64,000 bases of DNA from Ferruginibacter sp. (GTDB lineage: Bacteria > Bacteroidota > Bacteroidia > Chitinophagales > Chitinophagaceae), in assembly GCA_013141435.1 (NCBI GenBank), contig JABFQZ010000015.1:1-64000 (forward strand). The letters run 5' to 3'. Positions 22,997-27,724 of the stretch are shown here, one piece after another. Below the pieces are notes generated by a model. That model was not told the origin of the DNA, did not search any database, and saw only the letters and a list, made by a program, of their open reading frames with translations. A program made the position numbers and the translations under genes. Within the stretch, counting starts at the first letter, position 1, and the number at the start of each line of letters is the position of its first letter.

Positions 22997-24505
22997 TTAA
23001 GAAATCATTTTTTTTATTTCTTCTACAATTTTTCTTTCGTTACTTAGTCTAGGCACTTTGTGTTGGCCGCCTACTTTATTTTTGCTGCGTAGCCAGTTTG
23101 TAAATGTACCGTTAGGCATTATTTGCACTACTGGCATACGAAGTGCAATATCTTTTTGTCGTTTGGCTTCGTAATCGCTATTTACATTTTTTAAAGCATT
23201 ATCTAACTCTTGTGTAAATAATAATACATCATTTGGTACAGTTTCAAACTCTATTAACCACTCATGTGCACCATTGCTTTGTGCTGTAAAATAAATAGGC
23301 GCTGCTGTATAATCTTTTACAATAGCGTTAGTTTTTTGTGCAGCAGTTGCTATTGCTTTATCTGCATTATCCACTATCAGTTCTTCGCCAAAGGCGTTTA
23401 TATAATGTTTAAGTCGGCCTGTAATTTTTATTTTGTATGGGTTTAGCGATGTAAATATTATTGTATCACCAATTATATAGCGCCACAAGCCACCAGTAGT
23501 GCTTATTACAATGGCATAATTTTTATTTATTTCTACGGTAGTAAGCCCAAGTGTTTTTGGATTTAATTTTCCATATTCTTCTACTGGCATAAATTCATAA
23601 AAAATACCATGCTCAGTAAATAATAACATGCCTTCATCGTTAGGTTTTTCTTGAGCAGCAATAAAGCCTTCGCTGGCATTGTATATTTCTAAAAAATTTA
23701 TTTTTTTTCCAATAATATTTTCAAATTGTTGTTGATAAGGCACAAATGATACGCCACCATTTATATATAATTCTAAATTTGGCCATACTTCGGCAATGGT
23801 TTTCTTTTTCTTTATTTCTAAAATTCGTTTAAGCAAAATTAGTGTCCATGTAGGTACGCCAGCAAGGCTTGTTACATTTTCTTCGGCAGTAATTTGAGCT
23901 AGTTTTTCAATTTTATTTTCCCATTCATCTAGCAATGCTATGCTAAGCTCTGGCGTACGTAGCCATTGCCCCCAAAAGGGTGAGTTTTGCATAAGTATGG
24001 CACTCAAATCGCCACACATTATATCATCGCTTAAATTACTTATTTGGTGCGACCCACCAACAACAAGGCTTTTGCCTGTTAATAAATTGCTACTAGGGAA
24101 ATTTTTATAATATTTTGTAAGCACATCTTTACTAGCCTGAAAATGGTTTTCTTGTAAACTTTCTTCGCTTACTGGTATAAATTTGCTTTTATTGTTAGAT
24201 GTGCCACTACTTTTTGCAAACCAATTTACTGGACTATTCCACAATACGTTTTCTTCGCCTTGCATCATACGTTCTATATATGGGCATACATCGTTGTACT
24301 CATGTATAGGTACTCTTTTTTTAAATTCTTTAATGCTAAAGAGTTTGTCAAAACTATATTTTTTTCCGAACGATGTGTATTGAGCATTGGTAACTAAGCT
24401 TTGCAAAACTTGCCTTTGAGCTGCTGCCGGGTGGTTTACCCAATTGTAAATACGTTTATAACGTAGCCTTGCAATTAAAGATATGGTTTTGGATAGCAAA
24501 TTCAT
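22997..24505 (-). CDS. GH3-family acyl-adenylating enzyme
   Basis: 502 residues, full GH3 length. Adenylation motifs: AKSSGTSNNKSKFIPVS (ATP loop, ~residues 92-108), the substrate/ATP segment IYNASEGFIAAQE, and STTGGLWRYIIGDTIIF. Plant GH3 enzymes couple amino acids to jasmonate or auxin; bacterial members are widespread in Bacteroidota with no known substrate. Located just after the broken arsC, with a 50-bp gap. Not obviously linked to arsenic. Confidence 0.9.
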   Translation of the reverse strand: MNLLSKTISLIARLRYKRIYNWVNHPAAAQRQVLQSLVTNAQYTSFGKKYSFDKLFSIKEFKKRVPIHEYNDVCPYIERMMQGEENVLWNSPVNWFAKSSGTSNNKSKFIPVSEESLQENHFQASKDVLTKYYKNFPSSNLLTGKSLVVGGSHQISNLSDDIMCGDLSAILMQNSPFWGQWLRTPELSIALLDEWENKIEKLAQITAEENVTSLAGVPTWTLILLKRILEIKKKKTIAEVWPNLELYINGGVSFVPYQQQFENIIGKKINFLEIYNASEGFIAAQEKPNDEGMLLFTEHGIFYEFMPVEEYGKLNPKTLGLTTVEINKNYAIVISTTGGLWRYIIGDTIIFTSLNPYKIKITGRLKHYINAFGEELIVDNADKAIATAAQKTNAIVKDYTAAPIYFTAQSNGAHEWLIEFETVPNDVLLFTQELDNALKNVNSDYEAKRQKDIALRMPVVQIMPNGTFTNWLRSKNKVGGQHKVPRLSNERKIVEEIKKMIS

Positions 24506-24716
24506 TATTGCAGCAAGATAAAAAATATTGTTGTAGAAACACTATTTGTATATGCTTAAATATTTTTTTCTACGAAACTTTTGCAGTAATCTTTTATCAT
24601 TTGCCTAACAGCATTAAATTGTTCCAAAATTTCTTGTTTGCTACCTTTGGCTTTTGCAGGATCGGGAAAATTGTAATGAAACTTTTTTGCTGCACTCGAA
24701 AAAAAAGGGCATCTTT

Positions 24717-24907
24717 CGTTCGAGGCTTTGTGCAGTTGGGGAATTGACCAACTGTCCGCCCGGAAACGAAGCTAAATTTATAACTAAAAGCCGAAGTTAA
24801 GAACTACTGCCCGGCAGAATTACGTCCGCCGAAACCAAAGCCTGGATATGCACTGCCGATGATTGCTTCAACGTCGAGCCCCAATTGCACAAAACCTTTT
24901 GTTGTGC
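24717..24907 (-). other. attC-like recombination site of the cassette
   Basis: In cassette direction: R'' box GCACAAC (24907-24901), 4-nt spacer, L'' arm at 24896-24879 (GGTTTTGTGCAATTGGGG), a ~137-nt variable centre with its own small hairpins, L' arm at 24741-24724 (CCCCAACTGCACAAAGCC), 6-nt spacer, then the G of R'. The L arms pair at 16 of 18 positions, the rest being wobble-type. The R boxes deviate from RYYYAAC/GTTRRRY at one position. At 191 bp it is on the long side for attC sites. Confidence 0.65.
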
Positions 24908-24976
24908 GTTCGTGCTGTCATTGAAAATGTCAGCTGAAGGAAAGCAAGGCTTACTTTTTCAAAAATTAAGATTGTA

Positions 24977-25411
24977 TCAATCAAGCAACTCGTCAGCTTC
25001 TTCATTGTAATGAAAGGAAGTTATTGTCCAACCAGTTCCACTATTATAAAGAGTGAAATCAACTTTTAAAAAGAACTTGCTGAATTTAATTACATAGAAA
25101 CGTTTAGCAATAAAATTCTTAACCTTACTTTCCTTTATAAATTCGGATGAAAGCATTTTGCCAAACTGCGGAAAGAGATTTTTGATTTGGTCTGCTATTG
25201 TCACTTTTAATGTGTCAATAGAGTTTGGTTGCATAACCGTATTCTGTTTCAAAAGTTCTAATGCTTCGTCAGTTTTACCTGCTACGAATTGCTGCATGAA
25301 GTTGTCACAGACATTATCAATTCGATTTTTGTCTTTGTCTAAATTTTGTTTGGTTTGTCCACATGAAACGAGTGTCAAACAAACAAAGAGAGCAGTCAAT
25401 AGTTTTGTCAT
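24977..25411 (-). CDS. cassette-borne small lipoprotein (DUF3887-like)
   Basis: 144 residues from the ATG at 25411; the frame extends to 25471 but that part belongs to the arsC junction. Lipoprotein signal MTKLLTALFVCLTLVSCGQ, lipid on Cys17. The mature part has an alpha+beta pattern (DNFMQQFVAGKTDEALELL, then several beta strands, GTGWTITSFHYNEE) like DUF3887 proteins of the NTF2-like fold. Probably faces the periplasm. Function unknown. It is the only gene of the inserted cassette and reads in the same direction as arsC. Confidence 0.7.
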   Translation of the reverse strand: MTKLLTALFVCLTLVSCGQTKQNLDKDKNRIDNVCDNFMQQFVAGKTDEALELLKQNTVMQPNSIDTLKVTIADQIKNLFPQFGKMLSSEFIKESKVKNFIAKRFYVIKFSKFFLKVDFTLYNSGTGWTITSFHYNEEADELLD

Positions 25412-25801
25412 AAATATATACGATTGAATTTGTAAAATGTGTCGGTGTAGCATGACGCACAACTTTAGCATTGTCGCAAACTGTTATTACAAAATCGAAA
25501 TCAACTTTTCGATATTCTTCGATATTGTTAGATGTGTGATGCGAAATATCAATATTATCTTCTTTCATGGTTTCGATGGCTAATGGATTTACGCCATGAG
25601 TTTCGATGCCTGCGCTATACACTTCGGCTTTATTTTTAGCAAAATACTTTAAATAGCCCTCTGCAATTTGGCTTCGGCAGCTATTACCTGTGCATAATAT
25701 CAATATTTTTTTCATGCCATATTTTTTTGTTTATAAGCTTCAGAGCAATGACATAGCTTTAGTAGCGATAATTATTTGTTTGTTTTTTCTTTGATTAAAT
25801 A

Positions 25802-26290
25802 TTATACTCCTATTGTTTTACTTCTTCTTTCCATTATCACATTATCTCTCCATACACCATTCTTTGCACCAATTTTTTCCCGGTATCCAATTATTCTAAA
25901 CCCCATTGTTTCATGCAACTTTATGCTGCTAATATTCTCAGGAAAAATACCCGATTGTAATGTCCACAGACCATTTTCTTCACTTTCACTAATAAGTTTT
26001 TCAAAAAGTATTTTACCAATTCCTTTTGCTCTTTCATTTGATGCTACATATATACTTACTTCCGCTACACCTGCATACACACATCTAGAAGACACAGGCG
26101 AAAGTGCAGCCCAGCCTAACATTTTTACATCCTCAAAAATGGCTATTCTGCAAAATGGCAAATGACTTTTATCCCATTCGGCCCAAGTTGTAGCTTCGGT
26201 TTGAAAAGTTGCATTACCAGTTGCAATTCCTTGTTCATAAATTTCTACAACAGTTTGGTAATTGTTTTCTTGTATTGCTTTAATTTTCAT
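25802..26290 (-). CDS. ArsN1/PAT-like N-acetyltransferase
   Basis: 162 residues. Strong phosphinothricin-acetyltransferase pattern: IYEQGIATGNATFQTEATTWAEWD at the N terminus, VSIYVASNERAKGIGKILFEKLI (acetyl-CoA loop), SIKLHETMGFRIIGYREKIGAKNGVW at the end. In arsenic operons this family (ArsN) acetylates the organoarsenical antibiotic arsinothricin, a phosphinothricin analogue. Position between a methyltransferase and arsC, with a 4-bp overlap upstream, makes that role plausible, but specificity is inferred. Confidence 0.8.
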   Translation of the reverse strand: MKIKAIQENNYQTVVEIYEQGIATGNATFQTEATTWAEWDKSHLPFCRIAIFEDVKMLGWAALSPVSSRCVYAGVAEVSIYVASNERAKGIGKILFEKLISESEENGLWTLQSGIFPENISSIKLHETMGFRIIGYREKIGAKNGVWRDNVIMERRSKTIGV

Positions 26291-26907
26291 TTGAAAATTT
26301 GCTTTTTAAAACTACAAAATAAAAAGTTTTGTTTTGTTCCAAAGGGTGTAATATGGTTTTCGGTAATGCAACGAATTTTATCAAAACTATTTTTAAATTC
26401 GGTTGATAGTTTTTCTTTGCTGTATTTTTTTATTTCTAATCCGCTACATCTATCTGGTCCATCTTCCGAAAAAGTGCCAATGGTTAAATAGCCTGCTACG
26501 GTATTTTTAGCCGTTTTTAAATAAATAGCTCTTTCTTCTTCGGTAGTTAAAAAATGAAATGTAGCTCTATCATGCCAAACGTCATAAGTAGTAGTTGGCT
26601 CAAAGTTTGTAACATCACTTACTATCCATTGTACTGTTTTTGCCCTAACTCCCAATCTCTTTTTTGCTTTTAAAAGAGCAGTTTTAGAAATATCAAGTAC
26701 AGTTATGTTTACAAACCCCTCGTTTAATAAATTATCTACAAGGGTGCTATCTCCACCACCAATGTCAATAATTTTGGCGGTTTTATCTACTCCAAAAGAA
26801 TGTATAAAATCTAACGATGTTTTTGGAACAGCTTGTGTCCAACTTACTTCATTGGGGTTTTTTGTTTTATAAACTGTATCCCAATGTTTTTTAATTTGAT
26901 TTTGCAT
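26287..26907 (-). CDS. class I SAM-dependent methyltransferase of the ars operon
   Basis: 206 residues from ATG 26907 (an in-frame start 7 codons upstream overlaps the previous gene). SAM site IDIGGGDST at residues 47-55; VLDISKTALLKAKKRLG, WIVSDVTNFEP and the conserved WHDRATFHFLT and FSEDGPDRCSGLEIKKY follow. This subgroup often sits with arsR and DUF6428 in Bacteroidota. It lacks the multiple conserved Cys of ArsM, with one Cys in DRCSGL, so arsenite methylation is not assured. Cytoplasmic. Confidence 0.8.
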   Translation of the reverse strand: MQNQIKKHWDTVYKTKNPNEVSWTQAVPKTSLDFIHSFGVDKTAKIIDIGGGDSTLVDNLLNEGFVNITVLDISKTALLKAKKRLGVRAKTVQWIVSDVTNFEPTTTYDVWHDRATFHFLTTEEERAIYLKTAKNTVAGYLTIGTFSEDGPDRCSGLEIKKYSKEKLSTEFKNSFDKIRCITENHITPFGTKQNFLFCSFKKQIFK

Positions 26908-26918
26908 ATATTTATTTT

Positions 26919-27383
26919 TTAGCAACAACCACTACCTGGAGTACAACAATTAGCTACTTCTTTTACTGCTGACATTACAGTGTGTAAAGATGGTATCCCA
27001 CAAAAATCCAAAGCCAAACAGGCTGTATGTTTTGCGGTTAGTATAAAATCTTTTCCGTTAAAATCTAAACCATATTTAGATATCGTTTCGTTTTGATATT
27101 CTACTTCTATTTCCCAATCCTCAATGCCCAATTTCTTTTCTGAAAGGGAAATAATATTTAATAATTTTTGTGGTTTTAATCTATGTTCAAAATCATTAGC
27201 CTCCCATAATTGAAAGACAACTTTGTTTTCTTTGCGAATAATACCGCCACAATCAATAAAGTTTTTGGTAACTTTGCCTACTTCTGTTACATGAAAATGC
27301 GCTGGCACAAATGTTCCATTTTCTAATTTAAAATTTACTGCTTCGGCAGAAGCCAAAATTGTTTTAATTTCTGATAGTTTCAT
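26919..27383 (-). CDS. DUF6428 family protein
   Basis: 154 residues from MKLSEIKTIL; the 7 earlier codons overlap arsR and look unconserved. Features: VNFKLENGTFVPAHFHVTEVG near the start, FIDCGGIIRKE, FQLWEANDFEHRL, and the ending CTPGSGCC with a cluster of Cys (and CGIP before it). The family is regularly the second gene of arsR operons in this phylum; the C-terminal Cys cluster suggests binding of arsenite or another soft metal. No enzymatic activity is known. Confidence 0.8.
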   Translation of the reverse strand: MKLSEIKTILASAEAVNFKLENGTFVPAHFHVTEVGKVTKNFIDCGGIIRKENKVVFQLWEANDFEHRLKPQKLLNIISLSEKKLGIEDWEIEVEYQNETISKYGLDFNGKDFILTAKHTACLALDFCGIPSLHTVMSAVKEVANCCTPGSGCC

Positions 27384-27394
27384 AATGCTTAATT

Positions 27395-27724
27395 TTAACA
27401 ACAACTTTTCTTCTTTTCTATTTTTAAAGAAAATTCGGATAAAAATTGTTGGAATTTTAAAAAAGTTTTTTCATTTATACAATAACAAATACTATTGCCA
27501 TCAATAGTTCCTTTTATGAGTTCTGCATTTTTTAATTCTTTCAAATGCTGCGATACAGTAGGTTGCGCCAATGGTATTTCTTTCACAATATCTCCACAAA
27601 TACAAGTATTTATTTTTAGCAAATAATCAATAATGGCTACCCTTGCAGGGTGTGCTAAGGCTTTCATAATGCTGGCTATTTCGTTTTGCCTTTTGGTAAA
27701 TAATTCTGTGTTTGATGTTCCCAT
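27395..27724 (-). CDS. arsR: ArsR-family metalloid-responsive repressor
   Basis: 109 residues. Winged helix: [52 protein letters not shown]. The arsenite site is likely Cys41 and Cys43 (TCICGDI), possibly joined by the terminal KKKSCC. First gene of the arsenic operon, divergent from a GNAT gene, so it likely represses its own promoter until arsenite or antimonite binds. Confidence 0.9.

Follow-up and report, generated by a model that had tools for sequence, protein, structure and literature searches.

On the minus strand of the window, by which we mean the whole stretch of 64,000 nucleotides analysed here, arsC, the gene for a thioredoxin-type arsenate reductase, is interrupted by an insert (Table 1). 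Four genes on the same strand stand upstream of it, and a GH3-family protein (PF03321) is encoded directly downstream (window 22997-24505). Together the two halves amount to 137 codons of an LMW-phosphatase-type ArsC. The N-half matched arsC_pI258_fam (TIGR02691) with an E-value of 1.5e-29 and 102.8 bits, under the cut-off of 174.3 because it is only half a protein, and the 132-aa open frame that starts with it matched LMWPc at E 9e-17. Between the halves lie 747 bases including one G, base 24717, which can be assigned either to the host arsC or to the insert, giving an insert of 746 bp.

The original prediction had described a precise, frame-shifting insert of this size without loss of host bases, lying between two of the redox cysteines Cys8, Cys80 and Cys87, and had proposed a search for uninterrupted arsC genes in relatives. 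The cysteines are where it placed them, with the insert between the second and the third, and an uninterrupted reading across the insertion point (...VCDNAK|ERCPFF... or close variants) was found in 28 of 29 fetched relatives, the 29th (L204) having been missed by the search pattern and standing outside the 28 that were read. The split and its precision are thereby borne out, and the undecayed C-half suggests that the inactivation may be recent. At E ≤ 1e-12 the N-half matched no second copy in its own genome, the single match being arsC itself, and it was matched in 40 of 93 same-genus genomes, the weakest of which may be other LMW phosphatases.

Table 1. Features at the interrupted arsC locus (positions in the window)
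Feature	Position	Strand	Remarks
arsC (thioredoxin-type arsenate reductase), interrupted	24556..25715	minus	
arsC C-half	24556..24717	minus	53 codons + stop; first residues ERCPFF; holds Cys87
arsC N-half	25464..25715	minus	84 codons; last residues VCDNAK; holds Cys8 and Cys80
attI-like left half of the arsC target	25464..25486	minus	23 host bases (24 scored with the shared G)
Inserted gene cassette	24718..25463 (equally 24717-25462)	minus	746 bp
Cassette 5' end, R' core	25455..25463	minus	GTTGTGCGT; 6/6 variable positions complementary to own R''
Lipoprotein-like ORF	24977..25411	minus	144 aa (MTKLLTALFVCLTLVSCGQ...); same direction as arsC
attC-like site of the cassette	24717..24907	minus	R'', L'' arm, central part, L' arm to junction
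R'' core of the attC-like site	24901-24907	minus	GCACAAC
GNAT acetyltransferase	25802..26290	minus	upstream of arsC, same strand
Methyltransferase	26287..26928	minus	upstream of arsC, same strand
DUF6428 protein	26919..27404	minus	upstream of arsC, same strand
ArsR-family regulator	27395..27724	minus	upstream of arsC, same strand

By its anatomy, the insert is an integron-type gene cassette with one ORF, lipoprotein-like, and a foldable attC-like site at its 3' end comprising R'', L''/L' and R'. Its ends, GTTGTGCG and CGCACAAC, are perfectly complementary and would join to one attC. When the insert is joined as a circle, the ends form a long imperfect palindrome (z -2.98), and the two attC halves folded separately give no significant hairpin (z -0.98 and -1.43), so that the attC structure rests on pairing between the cassette ends. 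The R' sequence GTTGTGC fits GTTRRRY at 6 of 7 positions. At about 190 nt, the site is above the 57-141 bp given in PMC12901181. The insert had no match in plasmid and phage collections, and no Rfam family (intron, riboswitch or others) exceeded its gathering score in the window.

The insert was compared by BLAST with 147 relatives, and 44 genomes matched, 43 of them from the same genus when the insert's own genome is counted. In 41 same-genus genomes, again including its own, the match lies in the last ~187-200 nt of the insert; matches in two other genomes of the genus and in G102 fall elsewhere in it. Most full-length copies have unrelated flanks beyond YAAC at the left edge and CG|TT at the right edge. 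A covariance model, R1, was built on 17 copies with the window copy excluded, and it matched the window copy at 24703-24913 with 212.5 bits. The hand-written structure, with 10 R'/R'' pairs and 18 L'/L'' pairs, pairs 80.4% of the cells in the 17 copies, against 33-46% when the structure is slid. Twelve pairs changed on both sides, a number reached by 4 of 500 shuffles, and the covariation score of 0.176 was attained by none of the 500, with slid controls at 0.033-0.079.

In the consensus the arms align 18:18 and show no bulge. An A.C mismatch in the arms is constant in 17 of 17 copies and reads as T.G on the other strand. In the consensus A1, columns 31/195 and 22/204 hold the A.C mismatch (17/17) and a T.G pair (13/17), respectively, and either strand has a wobble and a mismatch in mirror-image positions, possibly a strand mark. 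R1, whose sites measure about 187 nt, was complemented by a model of a second attC-like class of about 146 nt (R2). On sequence grounds, R1 and R2 sites have the anatomy of integron attC sites, with cores of the published consensus RYYYAAC and GTTRRRY (PMC12901181), arms and a variable middle. With at most 25 candidates scored per genome, R1 sites were present in 69 of 93 same-genus genomes. The lipoprotein-like ORF had no Pfam match at E ≤ 1 (142 of 144 residues searched). Its use for tracing this cassette in other genomes was set aside: its distant homologues in three other genomes have no flanking R1 or R2 sites, and the gene was not seen inside an array in these runs.

In arrays, the sites stand about one gene apart and the cassettes have a median length of 858 bp (range 380-2433); locus L207 of Flavobacterium enshiense is a named example with about one gene per site. 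The cassette ends were compared at full-length R1 sites of 14 of 20 array loci, from nine genomes. Sites that were partial or lone, and some with low scores, were omitted, which can only mix pairs. In 67 cassettes (6 more were unreadable), the two ends agree at 5.27 of 6 variable positions compared with 2.87 for mixed pairs, and none of 10000 permutations was as high. The ends of the window cassette agree at 6 of 6 variable positions, which implies that the insert is a single whole cassette whose two ends belong together.

At the head of the arrays in this genus stands an Xer/IntI-like tyrosine recombinase of about 400 aa. The KGKKDR box and HxLRH are 58-62 residues apart in 27 of the 28 genus recombinases, the pattern having failed to read the remaining one, mostly 57-63 apart in named Bacteroidota recombinases and 64-66 in Xer; the spacing is 99-100 in canonical IntI, with 100 in L044 and 14 of 15 IntI (the 15th unread). 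The short spacing shows that the genus recombinases lack I2, the insertion specific to IntI. They score 161-192 bits against the IntI model TIGR02249 (cut-off 265), which matches the protein on contig C8 of the window's own genome at 2-178 and 242-315 only; in five other recombinases the best stretch ends at 177-179. Their best NCBIfam match is NF040815, at 185-203 bits (cut-off 220), and in many of them the motif SPLD lies close to the C-terminus.

A tree of 91 of 106 prepared rows (quick search, SH-aLRT only) places IntI (100), the genus recombinases (97) and Xer (99, four rows) each on one side of a branch, with the genus recombinases among other Bacteroidota recombinases. The best structural match of a model of the F. 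enshiense recombinase (pLDDT 83.7, pTM 0.58) was the Vibrio cholerae integron integrase 2a3v, followed by XerA. Residues 1-70 of this protein (L207:7731-8801) form a small beta-alpha domain with a conserved W...WY.P before the SAM-like domain. For this N-terminal region, five genus proteins gave no Pfam match over the cut-off and one a weak DUF5710 match, and the N-terminal part of the C8 recombinase is about 90 residues longer.

The 93 genus genomes contain 42 matches to the recombinase of at least 285 bits. By hand tally, 22 of these have a codirectional attC-like site within the 3 kb downstream, two of them weakly (E about 1e-5 and 4e-4). Fifteen recombinases reach a contig end within about 700 bp downstream, two (G018 and G006) have an attC-like site adjacent on the other strand, and three (G037, G047 and G075) showed no attC-like match in the 1.5-4 kb examined downstream. 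The opposite orientation concerns loci L106/L144 (G018:C9) and L143 (G006:C98), against codirectional sites in the 22 others. Seven Xer loci gave no R1 or R2 match.

An independent set was gathered from GTDB by the recombinase alone, as the best 80 of at least 592 loci, from which neighbours of the window's own genome may be absent. At E ≤ 0.05, R2 matched 18 of the 80 loci with 50 matches, 46 of which lie downstream on the recombinase strand; two others are upstream on the same strand, and on the other strand there is one upstream and one downstream, the latter being the reverse of a palindromic match. Taking one best match per locus, 17 of the 18 have it downstream in the direction of the recombinase (binomial 1e-10, expected share 0.22); among the 17 are Flavobacterium, Algoriphagus, Cyclobacterium, Aquiflexum, Algibacter, Seonamhaeicola and Winogradskyella. 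The 62 loci without an R2 match at this threshold include many from other phyla. Across the phylum, the model of the I2-less recombinase matched 115 of 395 genomes at E ≤ 1e-55, which is an upper bound because the model may also catch other simple recombinases. R2 was run on 29 of 30 fetched phylum loci (L309, from the window's own genome, was omitted) and matched 11, ten of them downstream on the recombinase strand and one (L317) upstream.

The window's own genome, a draft of 43 contigs, has such a recombinase on contig C8 (2312-3772 of L039, minus strand). It is followed after 198 bp by an attI-like sequence, then by four small genes and by an attC-like site (1-140 of L039) cut by the contig end. 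The first cassette here seems to comprise four codirectional small genes (141-2311 of L039, G000:C8) as opposed to the usual one gene per cassette. R1 and R2 together (E ≤ 0.01) found 17 distinct attC-like places on 12 contigs in this genome, 11 from the first search and 6 from a later one. The 16 places other than that in arsC are on contigs C1, C3, C4, C8, C9, C12, C21, C22, C24, C26 and C41, and the scattered places fall into two size classes of about 187 and 146 nt. Among four other strong copies in the genome, two have a matching 5' end. A 30-nt match on C31 resembles the central attC part but coincides with no R1 or R2 match.

Behind the recombinase stop, 28 loci were compared and 22 used, after removal of L157 (a near-copy of L107), L174, L162, L173, L139 and L144. 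In these 22, a shared motif ending in G|TT lies 106-328 bp after the stop, the cut having been assigned by eye as G|TT after the shared block. All 22 have a C 14 bases ahead of the cut, and in 17 of them it belongs to CG. The recombinases of G016 and G078 are 97% identical and the next 127 nt contain four differences; exactly from G|TT on the sequences are unrelated, with 34 of the next 60 bases different. As read from this comparison, the break is the boundary expected of an attI with different first cassettes, and a putative attI with a G|TT crossover stands beside the recombinase.

In arsC the target reads TTTGCG plus 12 further bases, the last of which is the crossover G, an arrangement seen in most attI sites. 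The empty arsC was scored with a profile built over 24 columns from the attI left halves. With 21 attI sites, the genome's own omitted, the true insertion point ranked first of 872 positions on both strands with a score of 5.37, the next position scoring 2.35. It also kept first place whichever of the 22 sites of the full set was left out, and in random halves of the 21 sites it came first in 108 of 200 draws, 21st at worst. In the window the point lies in the top 0.06%, and a shift of one to six positions in either direction brings the score below -14. Its score (5.4-5.6) is under that of most true attI sites (1.3-17.4 in leave-one-out). That the profile ranks the arsC point first ties the insertion to the I2-less system and argues against a random event.

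With a probability of roughly 85%, we conclude that a cassette integrated outside its platform at an attI-like pseudo-site in arsC and inactivated the gene. The enzyme was probably a Bacteroidota tyrosine recombinase that serves as an integron integrase without I2, to which the anatomy of the recombinase and sites, its position at the array head, the attI-like boundary and the likeness of the target all point. The cassette would be circularised by recombination between two attC sites, or would come from outside. Its attC, presumably as a folded single strand with R' paired to R'' and L' to L'', would then be joined to ...CG-N12-G|. The usual partner would be attI, giving G|TT; here it would be TTTGCGACAATGCTAAAG|AAAG in arsC. 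One G would be common to both junctions with no host base lost, and the intermediate is presumably resolved by replication. Arsenate reduction by this gene would be lost. The cassette follows the ars genes in sense orientation, and its lipoprotein gene may be co-transcribed with them.

Canonical IntI was our first assumption, and it could have inserted the cassette while present transiently on a plasmid, or before being lost or left unassembled, which would make the I2-less recombinases bystanders. In favour of this, the rest of the phylum often carries IntI (matched in 107 of 395 genomes at E ≤ 1e-55, with 105 above the cut-off), use of attG sites has been reported for IntI1 (PMC12901181), and draft genomes miss pieces. 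However, TIGR02249 at E ≤ 1e-45 found IntI in none of 88 same-genus genomes, though 69 of 93 hold attC-like sites, and in 1 of 147 relatives, that one in another family. None of the 107 IntI genomes is listed in the genus or family of the window and one (G104) is in its order, the rest being listed as same phylum only. Furthermore, 15 canonical IntI loci gave no R2 match and the 10 of them run with R1 gave none either, and it is directly behind the I2-less recombinase that the attI-like block predicting the arsC site is found. We therefore regard IntI as an improbable agent.

A chimeric assembly, in which sequences of two strains were joined at a repeat, is very unlikely. The genome is a draft with attC-like sites at the ends of contigs C8, C24 and C1, but the cassette is contained, over all its 746 bp, within a contig of 76 kb, and its flanks on the two sides are halves of one arsC in register, meeting at the position across which 28 of 29 relatives are uninterrupted. 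A non-autonomous transposable element, MITE-like or IS-derived, whose long terminal inverted arms are attC-like by chance would also be repeated, palindromic and situated inside a coding gene, but it is hardly credible given the lack of a target duplication beyond the shared G and of a transposase match (Pfam, E ≤ 1), the conservation of the 3' end only with a 5' end that changes per cassette, the tandem arrays (in L207 with about one gene per copy) and the better match of a cassette's own ends to each other than to those of others.

Beyond the integration at arsC, it appears reasonably likely, with less assurance than for that event itself, that Bacteroidota hold a second integron lineage. 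Its integrase would capture attC cassettes without I2, may have gained this ability independently of IntI, and would scatter cassettes into genes at attI-like sites; its arrays would have been missed by IntI surveys and filed as CALINs, clusters of attC lacking an integrase. I2 has been described as necessary for IntI (PMC7790495, PMC4792948, PMC9668308), and gaining it as the step that let an Xer-like enzyme recombine attC hairpins (PMC7790495). The causality of this gain is said to be beyond demonstration, as deleting I2 kills IntI1 (PMC7790495). I2 accommodates bulged bases (PMC4792948), and the bulge-free arms of the attC sites described here would fit an enzyme without it. For Bacteroidetes, an earlier survey had In0 only, and a complete integron was then reported in Salinibacter (PMC9024848). 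Within the literature searched, with most subscription journals and all preprints outside it, we found neither an account of this Bacteroidota system nor one of integron arrays with an I2-less integrase at their head. If the lineage is real, the question of I2 causality becomes directly testable, there was a second way for integrons to arise or there is a second way for them to function, and the integrons of a large phylum have been under-counted. The interrupted arsC would then exemplify a cost, the loss of a chromosomal gene's function when a cassette inserts at a sequence resembling attI.

Among known systems, Xer recombinases (NF040815, TIGR02224, TIGR02225) have the catalytic core without I2 in common with the enzymes described here, and NF040815 is their best match; Xer differs in its separate clade and in its seven loci without attC-like sites. 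A subgroup of integron-like tyrosine recombinases with an incompletely conserved insertion has been described, in a paper that nevertheless calls the insertion essential for integron function (PMC8138268); unlike the I2-less recombinases, that subgroup is not tied to attC arrays in the excerpted text. IntI-based detection would probably file the I2-less arrays under CALIN as described in PMC9024848 and PMC8618304, but a dedicated recombinase and an attI-like site head many of them. With IntI integrons they share tandem cassettes, attC cores with covarying arms, an attI-like G|TT, the SPLD motif and the structural match to 2a3v. They differ from these in the low TIGR02249 score, the lack of I2, an extra N-terminal region, a clade separate from IntI, equal attC arms without a consensus bulge, and arrays usually codirectional with the recombinase. 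For the insertion itself the closest parallel is a cassette at a genomic site other than attI, termed attG (Loot et al. 2024, Nat Microbiol 9:228, as presented in the citing papers PMC11023631 and PMC12901181). As in attG insertions so defined, a single cassette with its attC lies outside an array and inside an unrelated gene, with crossover at a G and no loss of host bases; here, in contrast, the probable integrase is of a different lineage, the target resembles the attI of the platform, and a coding gene of a Bacteroidota genome is knocked out.
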